Below are positions 18,316-55,249 of a stretch of DNA of 64,000 nt, in pieces; position 1 is the stretch's first letter, and the number at the start of each line of letters is the position of its first letter. Made by a program: the position numbers and the translations under genes. Origin of the DNA: Puniceibacterium sediminis (GTDB taxonomy: Bacteria; Pseudomonadota; Alphaproteobacteria; Rhodobacterales; Rhodobacteraceae); assembly GCF_900188035.1 (NCBI RefSeq), contig NZ_FZNN01000007.1, positions 62,001-126,000 of the forward strand, read 5' to 3'. Under the pieces are notes generated by a model that searched no databases, was not told the origin of the DNA, and was given only the letters and a program-made list of their open reading frames with translations.

Positions 18316-19188
18316 CTACCGCTTGCCGTAGTAAAGCCCCACCACATGCTCGGCCTCGGCAAAGAACAGCCAGCGGGCGGTCAGAACGCCCGCGACATGG
18401 CTCAGCACCGCCAGCAGGGCGGTGATGTGGTGGAATGGCGCGAGCAAAAGCGCCACCGGTACAACCACCATAAAAACAAGGGCGATGATCCGAAGTTTCA
18501 GCGCGTGGCGTCGCGCAACGACATAGACCATTTCCCGCAGCAGATAGTTGCTGCCGGTATGGGGCGGCTCGAACGCGCGGACCGTGCCGCGCCCGCCCAG
18601 ACCCGTGGCGGTGCCAAGCGTGGTGCCGGATTGACCCAGCGCCTTGTCGCCTCTGTACCACCACCAGACTTGCAGCGCCCCGGCGATCAGCATCAATGAC
18701 ATCGCGACCGTGACCCGCCCCGACAGCAACGCGCCGCCTGCAAGCGACAGACTGAGGAACAGTGGCGGGGTCCAAACGCTGTGCCAGCGCGGGACGGTTT
18801 TCAGCTGGGCGTATATCATTGACGTGGTTAACACGGTCAAAAGCGACAGCGCGGCACCCAGCCAGCCAAGCGGGACAAGGTCATAACCGGCAAAGACCAG
18901 ACCCGCCGCGTAGAGGCCCATCGTGACAAGGGCGGCCACGGCGCAGCATGCCTCGCGCGAGAGCCAGCTGCTGCGCCATTGGGTGAACGCCTTGAGCGCG
19001 CGTTCGGGACGGCCAAGATGTTTCGCCGAGGCGGCCAAGCCACCGACGGCCATGGCGAAGCCTATGAAAAAGAACACGAAAGCGACCCATCCGGTGGGTG
19101 GTGTTGCGTCGATACCAAGCCAGAACAGCAGGCCGAAGCCAAGGCCCGAGAAGGTCGTGAAAGCGATGATCGAGGGGGCCGGGTGCAT
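18316..19188 (-). CDS. soeC: Sulfite dehydrogenase membrane anchor SoeC (DmsC family)
   Basis: DmsC-type integral membrane subunit with about eight hydrophobic helices that anchors the catalytic dimer and passes electrons to or from quinone. Typical features are GLGFGLLFWLG at the N-terminus and the SSWLSREACCAV segment. 290 residues from the ATG at 19188, which starts one base after the soeB stop. A longer reading frame upstream overlaps soeB out of frame and is not real. Named SoeC because of its partners; DmsC would be the name from this subunit alone. Confidence 0.85.
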   Translation of the reverse strand: MHPAPSIIAFTTFSGLGFGLLFWLGIDATPPTGWVAFVFFFIGFAMAVGGLAASAKHLGRPERALKAFTQWRSSWLSREACCAVAALVTMGLYAAGLVFAGYDLVPLGWLGAALSLLTVLTTSMIYAQLKTVPRWHSVWTPPLFLSLSLAGGALLSGRVTVAMSLMLIAGALQVWWWYRGDKALGQSGTTLGTATGLGGRGTVRAFEPPHTGSNYLLREMVYVVARRHALKLRIIALVFMVVVPVALLLAPFHHITALLAVLSHVAGVLTARWLFFAEAEHVVGLYYGKR

Positions 19189-19189
19189 G

Positions 19190-19936
19190 TCAGATCTTGT
19201 CCAGAGCCTTGTCGAGCCAGCCGAGGAACCCACGCGGTTCTTCGGCAACGGGGGTGAGGTACGGGGCGAGGACAGAGGTGTCGGCCCAGTCGTCTCTGGG
19301 TCGCGGTGGCAGGTATTTGTTGACCGGCTGTGTGCCTTGTTCGGGCATGATGTCCATGCCACCACGTTCCCTAACCAATTGAGAAACCTGACTTTCAGGG
19401 TCCGAAAAATCGCCGAAATGCCGCGCATTTGACGGGCAAGTGCGCACGCAGGCGGGGGTGCGATCCTCTTCGGGGAGGTTCTCGTTGTAGATCCGGTCGA
19501 CGCAGAGTGTGCACTTCTTCATCACCCCCTCGGCCGCGTCCATTTCGCGCGCGCCATATGGGCAGGCCCACGCGCAGAGCCCGCAGCCGATGCAGTCTTT
19601 TTCGTTGACCAGAACGACGCCATCCTCGGTGCGCTTGTAGCTTGCACCCGTGGGGCAGACGGTGACGCAAGGGGCATTTTCGCAGTGTAAACAAGACTTT
19701 GGAAAGTGGATGAGTTGAGCCGGACCGGTGTCTGGCTGGACCTCGTACGAGTGCACGCGGTTGAGGAAAGTGCCCGAGGGATCCGGGCCATATGGGTCCT
19801 GATCGGACAGGGGTGCACCGTGATTTTCGGTGTTCCAGCCCTTGCAGGAAATCACGCATGCCTGACAGCCGACGCAGGTATCGAGGTCGATGACGAGACC
19901 CAGCTTGCGGGTGGTGGATGCGGGCAGATCGGTCAT
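19190..19936 (-). CDS. soeB: Sulfite dehydrogenase iron-sulfur subunit SoeB
   Basis: DmsB/NrfC-type electron transfer protein of 248 residues with four cysteine clusters: CVGCQACVISCKG, CLHCENAPCVTVCPTG, CIGCGLCAWACPYG and CTLC paired with CVRTCPSNA, enough for four [4Fe-4S] centres. There is no signal peptide, so it is cytoplasmic. The start is the ATG at 19936 (MTDLPAS). No Shine-Dalgarno sequence precedes it; instead an array of 11-bp repeats ends eight bases upstream. It carries electrons from SoeA to SoeC. Confidence 0.88.
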   Translation of the reverse strand: MTDLPASTTRKLGLVIDLDTCVGCQACVISCKGWNTENHGAPLSDQDPYGPDPSGTFLNRVHSYEVQPDTGPAQLIHFPKSCLHCENAPCVTVCPTGASYKRTEDGVVLVNEKDCIGCGLCAWACPYGAREMDAAEGVMKKCTLCVDRIYNENLPEEDRTPACVRTCPSNARHFGDFSDPESQVSQLVRERGGMDIMPEQGTQPVNKYLPPRPRDDWADTSVLAPYLTPVAEEPRGFLGWLDKALDKI

Positions 19937-19944
19937 TTGAAGCC

Positions 19945-19994
19945 GTATGGAAAGCGTATGGCAGGCGTATGGTTTTCGTATGGCTGGGGTATGG
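19945..19994 (-). repeat. Five CCATAC units at an exact 11-bp period
   Basis: On the minus strand CCATAC begins at 19994, 19983, 19972, 19961 and 19950, each 11 bp apart, with variable five-base spacers (often starting G or GC). It lies between soeA and soeB, ending eight bases before the soeB ATG. The same kind of array sits before nrtB at 45380-45418, and both share CCATACGCTTTCCATACG. Confidence 0.9.
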
Positions 19995-20011
19995 TTGCGC
20001 GCGCTGGGCCA

Positions 20012-20058
20012 CAAAAGTCTTGTGAAGACTTTTGGCAAAACTTTTCTGAAAAGTTTTG
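20012..20058. repeat. Twin perfect inverted repeats in the soeA-soeB gap
   Basis: Two adjacent stem-loops with 10-bp perfect arms and three-base loops: CAAAAGTCTT with AAGACTTTTG (20012-20034) and CAAAACTTTT with AAAAGTTTTG (20036-20058). The arms are related to each other, suggesting duplication. They begin six bases after the soeA stop codon and precede the 11-bp array. The A/T-rich arms could also work as weak terminators or mRNA-end stabilisers. Confidence 0.85.
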
Positions 20059-20063
20059 GGCGC

Positions 20064-22907
20064 TCATTTGCCGATCTTCCAACGCAGATTACGAGGTGCA
20101 GGCGGGACGGGTGAGACCTGTGGCGGAAACACCGGTTGGGATTCCTTTGGGGGGGCGGATTTCTCGATCTTGACGCGCAGGTCGAACCAGGCGGCCTGTC
20201 CGGTGATCGGATCGGAATTGGCCCAGCGCAACCCGTCGCCCTTGGGTGGCAGCAGTTCGTGGATCAGGTGATTGAGCAGGAAGCCCTTGGTCGCCTCGGG
20301 GGCGTCCTTGTCCAGTGCCCATGCGCCCTTGCGTTTGCCGATGGCGTTCCAGGTCCAGACGGTGTTTTCGTTGAGTGCCGCCATATGCGCGCAGGGCACG
20401 GTGATTTCGCCGTGGCTGGAGGTGACGCGGACCCAGTCGCCATCGCGCAGGTCGTGCCGGGTCATGAGGTTCGTCGGCAGGTACAGCGGATTGTGTCCGT
20501 GGATCTGGCGCAGCCAGGCGTTCTGCCCGCCCCAGGAATGATACATCGCCATCGGCCGCTGGGTCAGGGCGTGGATCGGGTATTCCACCGGATCCTCGTG
20601 CCCGTCCGACATTGGCGGATACCAGATCGGCAGCGGATCAAAGGTGACCTGCATGCGGCCGCGCAGGTGGTCGGGCGGCTGGCGGTCGCCGTGTCCTTCG
20701 GCGGCGAGTTGGAATTTGCGCAGGGGTTCGACGTAGAGCTGGAACAAATAGGGCTGGGGTGTCTCATAGAAACCCATCGAGACGGCCCAGTCCTGATAGG
20801 CGGTGTTCCAGGGTTTGAAATAGCGCGCCTCCTGCGGGACATGGGCGGTGAAGAAACCGCCCTGCGCGATATAGCTGTCCAGCTGGGCCGCGTTCGGTTC
20901 GCCGCGTCCGTGGGTCAGCCCGTGGTCGCCCATGCGAAACCCGGCCAGCGGGCCGATTCCGGGTTTGCGCATGTGGTTGGTGATGTAGTCGGCATAGTCC
21001 GTATAGGCCGCGCTGCCGTCATCATTGATAAACCCCGGCAGGTTCAGCCGGTGGCCCAGATCGCAGAGCACGGATTGAAAGCCGCGCACATCGCGGTCGG
21101 GTTCCACCACCGGCCAGCGGATGGCGTCACCGGCAGCGTCGGGTTCGCTGATGGGCCGGTCGAGCAGCGAGATGCAGTCATGCCGTTCGAGGTAAGTCGT
21201 GTCGGGCAGGATCAGGTCGGCATAGGCCACCATTTCGGAACTGTAGGCATCCGAATAGATGATGTTGGGGATCTTGTAGGCGCCGTTTTCGTCCCGGTCG
21301 GTCAGCATTTCCATCACGCCGCGCGGGTTCATCGAGGAGTTCCACGCCATGTTCGCCATATACAGAAACAGCGTGTCGATCTTGTAGGGGTCGCCTGCGT
21401 GGGCGTTCGAGATGACCATATGCATCAGCCCATGCGAAGACATCGGGTTTTCCCAGCTGAACGCCTTGTCTATGCGCGCGGGGGTGCCGTCGTCCAGCAG
21501 GGCGAGGTCCTCGGGGCCCTGAACAAAGCCGAGGTGCGGGCCGTCCAGAGGGCTGTTCGGTTTGGAATGGCAGTGCGGCGTCGGGTGCGCTTCGGCGGGT
21601 TTGGGATAGGGCGGTTTGAAGCGGAAACCGCCGGGGGTTTCGACGCTGCCCAGCAGGATCTGGAGCACATGCAATGCGCGCGCCGTCTGAAACCCGTTGG
21701 AATGGGCCGAAACGCCGCGCATGGCGTGAAAGCTGACCGGGCGGCCGATCATTTGTTCGTGGCGTTCGCCGCGAAAATCGGTCCATGGCTGGTTCAGGAT
21801 CACCGGATCGTCAAAGGCGGTGTGTGCCAGTTCGGCGGCGATGCGGCGGATGCGGGCGGCGGGGATGCCGCAGCGGGTTTCGACCGCTTCGGGGCTGTAT
21901 TTGTTATCGAGGTAGCGTTCGGCCAGCAGATGCATCACCGGGCGATGGGTGACACCGGCGTGACGGTAGCTGGCCGCAAGATCGGGGCGCACGCCGGGCT
22001 GGTCAAAGGGCGCGGGTTTGCCGGTGTTGCGGTCGATGACCAGCGGTTTGCCGCTGTCGTCGCGCAGGAACAACCCGTGGTCCGGTGATTTGTCATCGCC
22101 GTTCAGCAGCACCGGCGCATTGGTGTAGCGCGACAGGTAATCGAGGTCGATCTGCCCTGCCTTGAGCAGTTCATGCACCAGCGACAGGATGAACAGCCCG
22201 TCGGTGCCGGGCGTGATGCCGACCCATTCATCGGCGATGGCGTTATACCCGGTGCGGATCGGGTTCACGCCGATGACCTTGGCCCCGCGTTGTTTCAGCC
22301 GTCCAAGCCCCATCTTCATCGGGTTGGAATCGTGATCCTCGGCCACGCCGAAGAGCATGAACAGTTTTGTGTGTTCCCAGTCCGGGCTGCCGAATTCCCA
22401 GAAGGCGCCGCCCATGGTGTAGATGCCCGCCGTGGCCATGTTGACCGAACAGAACCCACCGTGAGCGGCATAGTTCTGGGTGCCGAAATTCTGCGCCCAG
22501 AAGCTGGTGAATGACTGAGACTGGTCACGCCCGGTGAAAAAGGCGAGCTTTTCCGGGGCGGTTTCGCGGATGGGTTTCAGCCAGCTGACGGCGGTTTCCA
22601 GTGCCTCGTCCCAGCTGATCTCCTCGAACTCGCCCGAGCCGCGCGGACCGGTGCGGCGCAGGGGGGCGCGCAGGCGGGCGGGCGAATTGTGCTGCAGGAT
22701 GCCGGCGCTGCCTTTGGCGCACAGAACGCCCTTGTTCACCGGGTGGTCGCGGTTGCCTTCGATATAGGCGACCTTTCGTTTGCCATCGGGGCCGTCCTTG
22801 AGGTGGACGTTGATACCGCAGCGGCAGGCGCACATGTAGCAGGTGGTCTTGCGGACCTCGTCCGAGACCTTGGGCGATGTGTCGATCTGAGGCTGGATCG
22901 GGGCCAT
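20064..22907 (-). CDS. soeA: Sulfite dehydrogenase molybdopterin subunit SoeA
   Basis: Molybdopterin oxidoreductase of 947 residues that oxidises sulfite to sulfate in the cytoplasm. The N-terminal cluster motif is TTCYMCACRCGINVH with the fourth cysteine in KGVLCAKG, for one [4Fe-4S]; GRDQSQSFTSFWAQNF and HGGFCSVNMATAG follow in the Mo-bis-MGD domain. There is no twin-arginine signal, which separates it from periplasmic DMSO reductase DmsA and fits SoeABC, characterised in Allochromatium and implicated in sulfite oxidation by Ruegeria. Operon order is soeA-soeB-soeC. A polysulfide or thiosulfate reductase is the main alternative. Confidence 0.85.
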   Translation of the reverse strand: MAPIQPQIDTSPKVSDEVRKTTCYMCACRCGINVHLKDGPDGKRKVAYIEGNRDHPVNKGVLCAKGSAGILQHNSPARLRAPLRRTGPRGSGEFEEISWDEALETAVSWLKPIRETAPEKLAFFTGRDQSQSFTSFWAQNFGTQNYAAHGGFCSVNMATAGIYTMGGAFWEFGSPDWEHTKLFMLFGVAEDHDSNPMKMGLGRLKQRGAKVIGVNPIRTGYNAIADEWVGITPGTDGLFILSLVHELLKAGQIDLDYLSRYTNAPVLLNGDDKSPDHGLFLRDDSGKPLVIDRNTGKPAPFDQPGVRPDLAASYRHAGVTHRPVMHLLAERYLDNKYSPEAVETRCGIPAARIRRIAAELAHTAFDDPVILNQPWTDFRGERHEQMIGRPVSFHAMRGVSAHSNGFQTARALHVLQILLGSVETPGGFRFKPPYPKPAEAHPTPHCHSKPNSPLDGPHLGFVQGPEDLALLDDGTPARIDKAFSWENPMSSHGLMHMVISNAHAGDPYKIDTLFLYMANMAWNSSMNPRGVMEMLTDRDENGAYKIPNIIYSDAYSSEMVAYADLILPDTTYLERHDCISLLDRPISEPDAAGDAIRWPVVEPDRDVRGFQSVLCDLGHRLNLPGFINDDGSAAYTDYADYITNHMRKPGIGPLAGFRMGDHGLTHGRGEPNAAQLDSYIAQGGFFTAHVPQEARYFKPWNTAYQDWAVSMGFYETPQPYLFQLYVEPLRKFQLAAEGHGDRQPPDHLRGRMQVTFDPLPIWYPPMSDGHEDPVEYPIHALTQRPMAMYHSWGGQNAWLRQIHGHNPLYLPTNLMTRHDLRDGDWVRVTSSHGEITVPCAHMAALNENTVWTWNAIGKRKGAWALDKDAPEATKGFLLNHLIHELLPPKGDGLRWANSDPITGQAAWFDLRVKIEKSAPPKESQPVFPPQVSPVPPAPRNLRWKIGK

Positions 22908-45379: not shown

Positions 45380-45418
45380 GTATGGTATGCGTATGGAAAG
45401 CGTATGGTTCGCGTATGG
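45380..45418 (-). repeat. Four CCATAC units at an exact 11-bp period
   Basis: On the minus strand CCATAC begins at 45418, 45407, 45396 and 45385. Spacers are GCGAA, GCTTT and GCATA. The array lies between nrtA and nrtB, 33 bases before the nrtB ATG, and is the same type as the array before soeB. Confidence 0.9.
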
Positions 45419-45434: not shown

Positions 45435-45459
45435 GGGGTGCGCAATGACTGCGCACCCC
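45435..45459 (-). promoter_or_regulatory. Perfect 10-bp stem-loop after nrtA
   Basis: GGGGTGCGCA and TGCGCACCCC pair across a five-base loop nine bases beyond the nrtA stop. No T-run follows. Stem-loops after binding-protein genes commonly stabilise the upstream mRNA and give more binding protein than permease. Confidence 0.75.
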
Positions 45460-45467
45460 GGGGGGCA

Positions 45468-46835
45468 TCAGCCCTGAACTTCGTTGCCGACGACCTTTTG
45501 TTCGCCTTTGAGACCGATCGGCATGCTTTCGAGATAGGCGTTGGGGGTGCGGCCATCGTAGCCGATGCCGTCGATCACATCAGAAGCGGGGGTTGCTTCC
45601 TTGTAGCCGTCGCTGTCCCAGGGGAAGTCAGCCTCGGAGGCGAGACCTTCGTCCACCAGCAGGCGGGCCGCTTCGAGATAGATTTCGGGCTTGTAGACGG
45701 ATTTTGCGACTTCGTCGTACCAGCTGTCAGGCTTGGCTTCGCCGATCTGGCCCCAGCGGCGCATCTGGGTCAGATACCAGACGGCGTCGGAGTAGAACGG
45801 ATAGGTCGCGTTGTAGCGGAAGAAGACGTTGAAATCGGGGACTTCGCGGGTGTCGCCCTTTTCGTATTCGAACGTGCCGGTCATGGAATTGGCGATGACT
45901 TCGCGGTCGGCACCGACGTATTCGGGGCGCGACAGGATATCGACCGCCTCTTCGCGGTTGGCGTTGTCGTTTTCATCCAGCCACATTGCGGCGCGGATCA
46001 GCGCCTTGGTCACGGCGAGCGTGGTGTTGGGGTAGCTTTCGGTGAATTCGGCGGTCATGCCGAAGACTTTCTCGGGGTTGTTCTTCCACAGCTCGTAATC
46101 GGTGATGACCGGCACGCCGATGCCCTTGAACACCGCCTGCTGGTTCCACGGCTCACCGACGCAGTAGCCGTTGATCGTGCCGGCTTCCATTGTCGACGGC
46201 ATCTGCGGCGGCGGCGTGACGGAGAGGAACACATCGGCGGCGATCTGGCCGGTCACGTTTTCGGCCGAATAATAGCCGGGCGCGATGCCGCCGGCGGCGA
46301 GCCAGTAGCGCAGTTCATAGTTGTGGGTCGAGACCGGGAAAACCATGCCCATGTTGAAGGGCTTGCCTTCGGATTTGAAGGTTTCAATCACCGGCTTGAG
46401 GGCGCTGGCCGAAATCGGGTGCTGCGGGCGGCCGTCATCCATTTTGGGAATGTTCGGCTTCATCATTTCCCAGACCTGGTTGGAAACGGTGATGCCGTTG
46501 CCGTTCAGGTCCATGGAAAAGGGCGTCACGATGTGAGCTTCGGTGCCGTAACCGATGGTCGCCGCCAGCGGCTGACCGGCCAGCATATGCGCGCCGTCCA
46601 GCTGGCCGCCGATCACGCCGTCGAGCAGGACCTTCCAGTTTGCCTGCGCTTCGAGCGTGACAAACAGCCCTTCGTCAAAGAAATAACCCTGTTCATAGGC
46701 GACGGCGAGCGGCGCCATGTCGGTCAGCTTGATGAAGCCGAACTTCAGCTCGTCTTTTTCAAGCTCCAGCATCTCGGCAAAGGCGGGGCTGGCCAGAGCG
46801 GTTGTCGCGACAAGCGTAAGAATGATTTTCTTCAT
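45468..46835 (-). CDS. nrtA: Nitrate-binding protein NrtA
   Basis: Periplasmic nitrate-binding component of the ABC importer. The Sec signal peptide is [20 protein letters not shown]. The mature protein shows the CmpA/NrtA-family segments [42 protein letters not shown] and [14 protein letters not shown] that line the anion site. The ATG at 46835 is used; the region upstream holds a GAGGGAA ribosome binding site. First structural gene after the NasT-controlled leader. Confidence 0.94.
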
Positions 46836-46890
46836 CGGTGTGTTCCCTCGTTTCATACGATCCGGGACGCACAGAGATGCGGGGGCCCGG

Positions 46891-53714: not shown

Positions 53715-55109
53715 ATGGACCGAGACGAGATTACGGGCCTGCGTGCCCAGCTGGCTGGGCTGCAGACCGTGCGCGCCGTTGGCCGTGTAAGGTCGGTTGA
53801 TGGTACGGTGATTTGGGTGCGGGGCTTGGCGCATCTTGCGTCGATCGGCGACCGGGTCCGCCTTTTGCGCGGTTCGGGCGAACCTGTGAGCGGCGAGGTC
53901 CTGCGCATTCGTGAGGATCTGGTTGGCATGCTGCCCGACACCGGGATCGAAGGCGTTTCACAAGGTGACCGCGTGGCAGTATTGGGTCCGCCAACGCTGG
54001 CCCCATCCGATTCCTGGATCGGCCGGGTGATCGATCCCTACGGCGCTCCGCTGGACGGGCCACCCTTGGTTAACGGACCGCAGCGTCGCCCGTTCCGCGC
54101 CGCACCTCCGCCGGCCGCGCAGCGGCGCGGGCTTGGTGAGCGGCTTGAAACAGGTCTGTCGGTGTTCAACACACTGCTGCCCGTGGTCAAAGGCCAGAGA
54201 ATCGGTCTTTTCGCCGGGTCGGGCGTCGGCAAGTCGCGCCTGCTTGCCCAATTCGCCAAGGGGATGCAGGCCGATGTGGTCGTCCTTGCCTTGGTTGGAG
54301 AAAGAGGCCGCGAAGTGCGCGACTTCGTCACCAACGTATTAGGCCCCGAAGGTATGGCGCGCGCGGTCGTCGTTGCGGCCACTTCGGACCGTTCCCCGCT
54401 TGAACGTCGTCGCTGTCCGCAGGCCGCGATGACCATTGCAGAACACTTTCGCGACCAGGGAAAACACGTTCTCTACCTTGCCGATTCGATAACGCGTTTT
54501 GCCGAAGCGCACCGCGAGGTGGCCATCGCATCGGGCGAAATGCCGGCTCTGCGCGGCTTTCCCCCATCGACCGCGCATCAGATCATGACTCTGGCGGAAC
54601 GTGCAGGTCCGGGGATGGGCGACATGGGTGATATCACCGCGGTTTTCAGCGTACTGGTGGCTGGGTCGGATATGGACGAACCCGTGGCAGATATCCTTCG
54701 CGGTGTGTTGGATGGGCATGTCGTGTTGGACCGGCAGATCGCAGAGCGGGGACGCTTTCCTGCTGTGGATCTTCTGCGCTCTGTCTCGCGCAGTCTGCCC
54801 GAAGCTGCGAGCGACGAAGAAAATGTTCAGATTGCTTTGGCGCGCAGATTATTGGGCGCCTATGCACGCTCTGAAACCATGATCCGCGCTGGCCTCTACC
54901 GTGATGGTAGCGATGCGCAGCTGGATCAGGCGATCAAGGCATGGCCTGAATTAGAAGCCTTCCTTGCCGAAGCTTCGGCTTCCGGAATCGAAAACAGCTT
55001 TTCCCGGCTTCAGTTACTCTTGCGTCGGGCCACTTCAGGAAACGGATCGGCTGCGCCACTCAGAAACACAATGACCCCGGCAAAGAACCCTGCAGGACGA
55101 GGCGCATGA
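53715..55109 (+). CDS. fliI: Flagellum-specific ATPase FliI
   Basis: Hexameric ATPase of the flagellar type III export system, 464 residues. Walker A is GLFAGSGVGKSRLL; the beta-subunit-like Walker B region is VLYLADSITRFAEAHRE and the catalytic ring includes RGFPPSTAHQIMTLAERAG. The N-terminal beta-barrel (VRSVDGTVIWVRGLAHLASI) is present. Its TGA overlaps an ATG (ATGA) that opens a short disrupted frame into the CTGGGA repeat. Confidence 0.96.
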   Translation: MDRDEITGLRAQLAGLQTVRAVGRVRSVDGTVIWVRGLAHLASIGDRVRLLRGSGEPVSGEVLRIREDLVGMLPDTGIEGVSQGDRVAVLGPPTLAPSDSWIGRVIDPYGAPLDGPPLVNGPQRRPFRAAPPPAAQRRGLGERLETGLSVFNTLLPVVKGQRIGLFAGSGVGKSRLLAQFAKGMQADVVVLALVGERGREVRDFVTNVLGPEGMARAVVVAATSDRSPLERRRCPQAAMTIAEHFRDQGKHVLYLADSITRFAEAHREVAIASGEMPALRGFPPSTAHQIMTLAERAGPGMGDMGDITAVFSVLVAGSDMDEPVADILRGVLDGHVVLDRQIAERGRFPAVDLLRSVSRSLPEAASDEENVQIALARRLLGAYARSETMIRAGLYRDGSDAQLDQAIKAWPELEAFLAEASASGIENSFSRLQLLLRRATSGNGSAAPLRNTMTPAKNPAGRGA

Positions 55110-55249
55110 ATTTAGCGGTCGGCTAACTGGGACTGGGACTGGGACTGGGACTGGGACTGGGACTGGGACTGGGACTGGGACTGGGACTGGGACTGGGACT
55201 GGGAAACGCCTATTTGCTCTATCGAGAGCGTTCAACCCGCGAAATTTGA
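55106..55249 (+). pseudogene. Disrupted small reading frame after fliI containing (Leu-Gly)13
   Basis: An ATG overlapping the fliI stop starts MNLAVG, then TAA at 55124-55126. Directly behind the stop, in the same frame, the CTGGGA repeat encodes 13 Leu-Gly pairs followed by NAYLLYRERSTREI and a TGA at 55247-55249. If the TAA were a sense codon this would be a 47-residue protein with a hydrophobic Leu-Gly helix and a basic tail. Whether it was ever a gene, in the position often held by fliJ, is unproven; the coupling overlap is the main evidence. Confidence 0.35.
55127..55204. repeat. CTGGGA hexanucleotide microsatellite, 13 perfect copies
   Basis: 78 bp of uninterrupted CTGGGA units, beginning 17 bases after the fliI stop. 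Such perfect long hexamer arrays are rare in bacterial genomes and prone to copy-number change by slippage. Because the unit is six bases, length changes would not shift any reading frame. Confidence 0.97.

Follow-up and report, generated by a model that had tools for sequence, protein, structure and literature searches.

Direct-repeat arrays at an 11-bp phase, written in lineage-specific units, as possible chromosome marks in Puniceibacterium sediminis and its relatives

The genome of Puniceibacterium sediminis (G000; G and L numbers are our handles for genomes and loci) carries about 56 short arrays in which the hexamer CCATAC is repeated at a period of 11 bp, and relatives in the Rhodobacteraceae carry arrays of other units, or dialects, at the same phase, some of them at shared positions and mostly in the same orientation. 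Judged from sequence comparison, we give roughly even chances to the reading that these arrays are a chromosome-wide set of protein-bound DNA sites that mark chromosome positions, and that the specificity of their reader has drifted. A putative DNA-binding protein would recognise each 11-bp unit with one protomer (or dimer), and with three to six units in phase on the helix its copies would line up head-to-tail along a single face of the DNA. Bound arrays would then act as fixed chromosome marks, in anchoring, nucleoid organisation, segregation or the timing of division, and not as switches of single genes. Many positions would be inherited, drift of the reader would cause arrays to be rewritten in place, with one dialect per lineage, and lineages without the reader would lose their arrays.

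The window, that is, the whole stretch of 64,000 nucleotides that was analysed, holds two arrays, both on the minus strand. The first (19945..19994) lies between a soeA-like molybdopterin oxidoreductase gene upstream (20064..22907, minus strand) and a soeB-like Fe-S subunit gene downstream (19190..19936, minus strand). Its five units start at 19994, 19983, 19972, 19961 and 19950, separated by the spacers CCCAG, GAAAA, GCCTG and GCTTT, which confirms the unvarying 11-bp period reported in a first-pass annotation of this DNA. Reading the gap also bears out that the array stops 8 nt short of the soeB-like ATG at 19936, and that the intervening GGCTTCAA holds no Shine-Dalgarno-like sequence. The names soeA and soeB, taken from the same annotation, fit the alpha subunit of a molybdo-oxidoreductase and an Fe-S subunit, but the family matches of both genes (for soeB, to Fe-S beta-subunit families) all fall below cut-off and no NCBIfam model matches at cut-off, and we use the names as labels only. 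Two AT-rich inverted repeats (20012..20059) lie past the soeA-like stop codon and ahead of the array; they are a different kind of repeat and probably do not belong to the array, and similar hairpins were found in the soeA|soeB gap of loci L395 and L449. The second array (45380..45418; four units at the 11-bp phase, spacers GCGAA, GCTTT and GCATA) sits between codirectional genes for an NrtA/SsuA-like binding protein (45468..46856, minus strand, upstream of the array; SsuA match below cut-off) and an NrtB-like permease, and a GC-rich inverted repeat (45435..45459) separates it from the binding-protein gene. A three-unit CCATAC pattern matched five times in the window and in 0 of 100 dinucleotide-preserving shuffles. 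Elsewhere in the window, a perfect run of the hexanucleotide ACTGGG (55126-55204; 13.2 copies, 100% match) starts 16 bp past the end of an ORF (53715-55109) that we take to be FliI-like; the run is a possible contingency locus.

Across the G000 genome, the three-unit pattern gave 125 matches (63 forward, 62 reverse) and the four-unit pattern 69, which together indicate about 56 arrays. Slippage can create short direct repeats, and could in principle have been their source. We give almost no credence to neutral tandem duplication, or to an assembly artefact, and the results already contradict both: unit and phase are constant but the spacers are not, the reversed control pattern had 0 matches in G000, and genomes of other genera, assembled independently, have arrays at matching places. 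Fifty-four of the arrays were fetched and placed against genes called by a simple finder, whose start codons may be off. All but one are intergenic (53/54, with L083, which overlaps a called 37-codon frame that we judged spurious, counted as intergenic); the remaining array, L073, lies inside the coding sequence of valS. The arrays occupy both strands and every gene context: some are sense and some antisense, and others stand between convergent or divergent genes. With the CCATAC strand as reference (n = 54), the flanking genes are arranged ++ at 24 arrays, +- at 12 (L073 included), -- at 10 and -+ at 7, and at one further array a flanking gene was called on a single side; the apparent deficit of divergent gaps was not significant (P = 0.06). 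Among nine antisense cases with gaps of up to 700 bp, the stop codon on the 3' side of the array was near, at 4-53 nt; among twenty sense cases, the stop codon on the 5' side was farther off, at 3-586 nt. The 3' end of the arrays often continues into GCCGTTTTC-like sequence. The array beside soeB had been proposed to control soeB translation. Since the genome has about 56 arrays, on both strands and next to genes in any orientation, with one of them inside valS, we conclude that the array beside soeB is no switch specific to that gene.

The consensus of the arrays is fuller than CCATAC alone. In G000, spacer base 1 is G in 168/177 spacers, base 2 is C or G in 157 of 177, and base 4 is A or T in 172/177. 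Moreover, A-rich and T-rich neighbouring spacers alternate (47 alternations vs 35.8 +/- 3.1 in within-array shuffles, 1/5000 of which was as high). Complementarity between neighbouring spacers, considered as a hairpin, proved to be this same alternation, with no single hairpin register, and no excess of folding was found on either strand (15/200 and 98/200 spacer shuffles were as low). An RNA element in the transcript, serving translation control, attenuation, Rho loading or mRNA stability, would suit the many arrays that lie in 5' leaders and intercistronic gaps and a CCATAC strand that mostly follows the upstream genes. We nevertheless regard it as very unlikely, given the missing folding signal, the antisense arrays at two of the recurrent places (a LivG-like gene and gltD), and the result of the Rfam search, which at gathering score returned 0 matches in 19000-21000. 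That the phase is kept while the spacers vary, that orientation is not tied to transcription, that one array occupies a site in valS, and that there is no folding excess, suggest to us that the arrays are read as DNA, on one face, by a protein. The earlier proposal of a multi-site for a repeat-reading protein, with one site per helical turn, is supported as a reading, with the protein itself still putative.

Related genomes were searched for CCATAC arrays, as the first-pass annotation had advised. They were present in 10/394 genomes of the family, and other units occur at the same 11-bp phase elsewhere: TCATAC, CCAGAC, GCAGAC, ACCGAC and TGTGCAT. A relaxed pattern, CAKAC, matched in 54/394 genomes, a count that includes some (e.g. 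G132 and G276) whose matches look like simple tandem repeats, and for which the reversed control is void because CAKAC is identical when reversed. ACCGAC arrays were found in 24/394 genomes (the reversed control gave 3 matches, all in G211) and TGTGCAT arrays in 3/100 (G032, G084 and G063; control 0). At the places listed, TCATAC is dominant in G146, G341 and G071, and CCAGAC in G175. No genome carries both CCATAC and ACCGAC; as 0.6 such genomes are expected by independence, this is not significant alone. The ACCGAC dialect, the one pattern used at this range, was found in 0/150 genomes from other families of the class, in a search of 152 genomes that also took in G000 and the family member G210, which has ACCGAC. 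On a valS tree (a single gene from 29 genomes, with several forks open and the G032 row 43% filled), six dialect labels, one of them 'none', need 13 changes, and 5/200 shuffles needed as few. Dialects thus cluster somewhat on this tree yet switch repeatedly; G049 (CCATAC) and G032 (TGTGCAT), for instance, are neighbours there (support 81/87) across a change of dialect.

The valS gene shows such a switch within a coding sequence. Among the 31 genomes examined, 30 of which were chosen and not random, eight have a valS array, always on the coding strand and in one loop, bounded by FAEMN and N[KRQ]W[IL][IVL]GE. Four units are found there: CCATAC in G000, G145 and G105, TCATAC in G341, ACCGAC in G151 and G261, and TGTGCAT in G032 and G063. 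The encoded peptides differ accordingly, e.g. QPYASHTESIRFPD in G000 and CITCASDVHA in G032. Loops with an array measure 75-87 nt (6 parsed); those without measure 57-66 nt in 19/22 genomes and 72-78 nt in 3. The loop did not parse in G261 and G282; the array of G261 is known from its coordinates and from a separate scan, which gave none in G282. Several array-rich genomes (G175, G242 and G269) have no array in valS. Rickettsia palindromic elements are palindromic inserts that can also lie in frame within protein-coding genes; the arrays here consist of direct repeats, and those in valS share one site across four units.

Gene gaps that hold arrays are also shared across genera. With the CAKAC and ACCGAC arrays combined, 58/189 arrays adjoin a gene that is also array-adjacent in another genome. 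The genes immediately flanking an array are array-adjacent elsewhere in 78/372 cases and second neighbours in 15/319 (odds ratio 5.4, P = 1.2e-10). Adding 19 TGTGCAT arrays raises the counts to 74/208 arrays and 97/409 first neighbours, but takes second neighbours from the CAKAC and ACCGAC arrays only, so that the former contrast is the cleaner one. Left out of these counts were nine loci that look like simple tandem or coding repeats (L099, L100, L105, L109, L113, L117, L121, L124 and L194; L105 is possibly a true ACCGAC array), six loci ascertained through soeB (L138, L148, L406, L409, L420 and L434), which are kept in the list of recurrent places, and, from the count with TGTGCAT, also L451 and L548. 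A neighbour is shared with an array of a different dialect for 25/161 CAKAC-type, 11/28 ACCGAC and 10/19 TGTGCAT arrays. With TGTGCAT included, the strand relative to the array is the same in 74 matched gene pairs and flipped in 12, in a count that omits pairs on the same strand but on opposite sides of the gene. The change of dialect at constant positions hints that the reader may change together with its sites. Against the reading as chromosome marks, most arrays (131/189, in this partial sample) have no adjacent gene in common with another genome, the soeA|soeB gap is array-free in the majority of relatives, and strand polarity is absent from G175, as described below.

The recurrent places are soeA|soeB, rpoA|rplQ, serC|serA (where orientation flips between genomes), the regions upstream of lpdA and of the chorismate mutase gene, the gap at the LivG-like gene and the end of gltD. 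Names for rplQ, serC, serA, lpdA, rpoA, valS, chorismate mutase and gltD come from a profile search with one representative each, in which the LivG-like gene fell below cut-off; other gene names are those we take to apply. The soeA|soeB gap holds arrays in G000, G145, G196, G055 and G119, those of other genera in other units and in the same orientation as in G000. An unbiased period scan found an array in this gap in 3/30 loci (G000, G055 and G119) and in 4/80 named relatives (Shimia aestuarii, with unit ACCGAC, Salinihabitans flavidus, an uncultured Roseobacter and a Rhodobacteraceae MAG, the last with unit TGTGCAT), to which a degenerate one in L434 was added by eye; most relatives examined have none. 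The recurrence across genera indicates that the soeA|soeB position is itself meaningful. Array-free soeA|soeB gaps of several named relatives (e.g. L428, L440, L459 and L466) contain a different element, a GC-rich hairpin of the type CCCGGGGTCTGGGGCAGCGCCCCAG. In L391 (G067) and the Marivita loci L392, L396 and L397, but not in G000, the soeA- and soeB-like genes are separated by a putative small frame that includes an FIWFVA-like membrane segment.

Array density is roughly one per 50-110 kb, and gaps between arrays are more even than under uniform placement: the coefficient of variation (CV) was 0.64 in G175 (39 arrays listed; P = 0.0017), 0.56 in G145 (P = 0.0002) and 0.62 on seven contigs of G000 (P = 0.007), with smallest gaps of 12, 17 and 12 kb, respectively. 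Part of this evenness could stem from the distribution of suitable gaps in core genes. KOPS-like strand polarity was not found along the single contig of G175 (220/300 shuffles were as high), despite the polar look of early listings. In array-bearing loci, the unbiased period scan recovered 55 period-11 arrays in G000, 39 in G145 and 19 in G175, with 0-1 per control period; as those 19 came from 27 G175 loci, the scan misses some arrays. The same scan gave one weak match, no better than at control periods, in 585 kb of the congener Thalassococcus profundi (G067), where about 7 arrays are expected at G000 density, and likewise in 400 kb of G045. Genome-wide, G067 had 0 matches to the CCATAC, CAKAC, ACCGAC and TGTGCAT patterns, and its soeA|soeB gap has no array. 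Absence from close relatives with no effect on soeB expression, or random scatter, had been named at the outset as signs against a functional element; the arrays are indeed absent from this congener, but their placement is not random.

The arrays might instead be operators of a transcription factor, e.g. a winged-helix response regulator of the OmpR/PhoB type, regulating the adjacent genes. PhoP/PmrA/PhoB-type boxes consist of a hexamer and a spacer of about 5 bp in head-to-tail direct repeats at 11 bp, an architecture that the arrays match, and such boxes are promoter-proximal and have few units. Also in keeping with operators, arrays lie 22-26 nt from the start codon of lpdA in five genomes and 28-29 nt from that of the chorismate mutase gene in 4/5, and sense arrays exceed antisense ones in codirectional gaps (++ 83 vs -- 41, the six soeB-ascertained loci dropped), an excess that a purely chromosomal role does not predict. 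OmpR/PhoB boxes belong to promoters, however, whereas the arrays also occur within the coding sequence of valS, beside stop codons and in gaps where genes converge, and switch units. Together with the orientation flips at some places, the even chromosomal spacing and neighbours that, where identified, are mixed housekeeping genes, this makes operators an unlikely explanation. A reader with an AP2 domain (PF00847) was sought in sixteen genomes other than G000, eight with and eight without known arrays, and was found in none; like the lack of a RAYT in G000, described below, this counts against the chromosome marks.

Alternatively, the arrays could be members of a repeat family scattered over the genome, with a transposase or some other mobile function behind their spread or upkeep and a preference for permissive gaps and loops, and independent re-insertion at permissive spots may explain the shared positions. 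REP/BIME elements are dispersed and intergenic, often lie beside stop codons and have lineage-specific sequences, all of which the arrays resemble; REPs are hairpins, whereas the arrays have no hairpin signal and G000 has no RAYT. The patchy presence in the family, the intergenic gaps, the permissive valS loop and the greater length of that loop where an array is present would all suit a mobile repeat. In L035 (genome G074), a RAYT-like transposase gene lies 101 bp from an array, and the idea of a RAYT as mobiliser originated there; RAYT-like genes are present in 121/394 genomes of the family, but G000 has no match at E<=1e-12, and the idea was rejected for that reason. The inspected G000 arrays share no flanks beyond a loose 3' motif, agreement of position and orientation across genera exceeds expectation, and CCATAC and ACCGAC keep to separate genomes, all of which speaks against mobility, and we consider this explanation improbable. 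A search of PLSDB plasmids gave nothing convincing (blastn with 42-nt queries, of low sensitivity). Viral contigs held 35 CCATAC and at least 120 ACCGAC stretches, those inspected being mostly simple tandem or coding repeats. Three phage contigs (L249, L335 and L340) carry 11-bp direct-repeat arrays near terminase-region-like genes; these are possibly operators or packaging sites, and are unrelated by context.

Known systems of chromosome and plasmid marking share single features with the proposed chromosome marks. One account (PMC4726725) gives about 70 NBS for Noc in Bacillus subtilis and 24-52 SBS for SlmA in E. coli; in each case a single DNA-binding protein has tens of sites scattered over the chromosome, and the about 56 arrays of G000 are comparable in number. 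Sites of the Noc, SlmA and MatP type are palindromic, in contrast to the non-palindromic tandem direct repeats described here, with their lineage-specific units. Noc and SlmA sites are, in the same account, underrepresented in Ter, whereas the arrays are more even than random. ParR of plasmid R1 requires two or more 11-bp repeats, and the repeats of parC vary between ParR families (PMC9426499). These direct repeats of about 11 bp resemble our arrays, which have a period of exactly 11 bp; parC, however, is one plasmid centromere beside parMR, against tens of arrays per genome here, and no par genes (actin-like or ParR) were recognised by eye among the recurrent array neighbours. We claim none of the Noc/SlmA, parC and OmpR/PhoB families as the home of the arrays, because each failed a tested feature or left one unsettled. 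In agreement with the first-pass annotation, which knew of no such element, we met no description of arrays of this form in the open-access literature searched.

Somewhat more tentatively than for the chromosome marks as such, we suggest that the arrays amount to a positional code, in which evenly spaced arrays of a short word, with one copy per helical turn, would keep inherited places while a fast-evolving reader causes them to be rewritten in place and with unchanged orientation, even within the essential valS, where an array would seem to be needed more than a given peptide sequence. Such a code would be a prokaryotic analogue of boundary or anchor elements whose reader and sites co-evolve. 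Even if the arrays serve transcription, the switching of units at fixed positions, also within an aminoacyl-tRNA synthetase gene, would be unusual. Chromosome marks of this kind, if the reading holds, would represent a new marking system in a largely marine family whose members are common. They would also offer a natural experiment in protein-DNA co-evolution, with the same sites written in several dialects and system-free sister species as controls, and how a genome-wide set of sites tracks a changing DNA-binding specificity would become directly testable.
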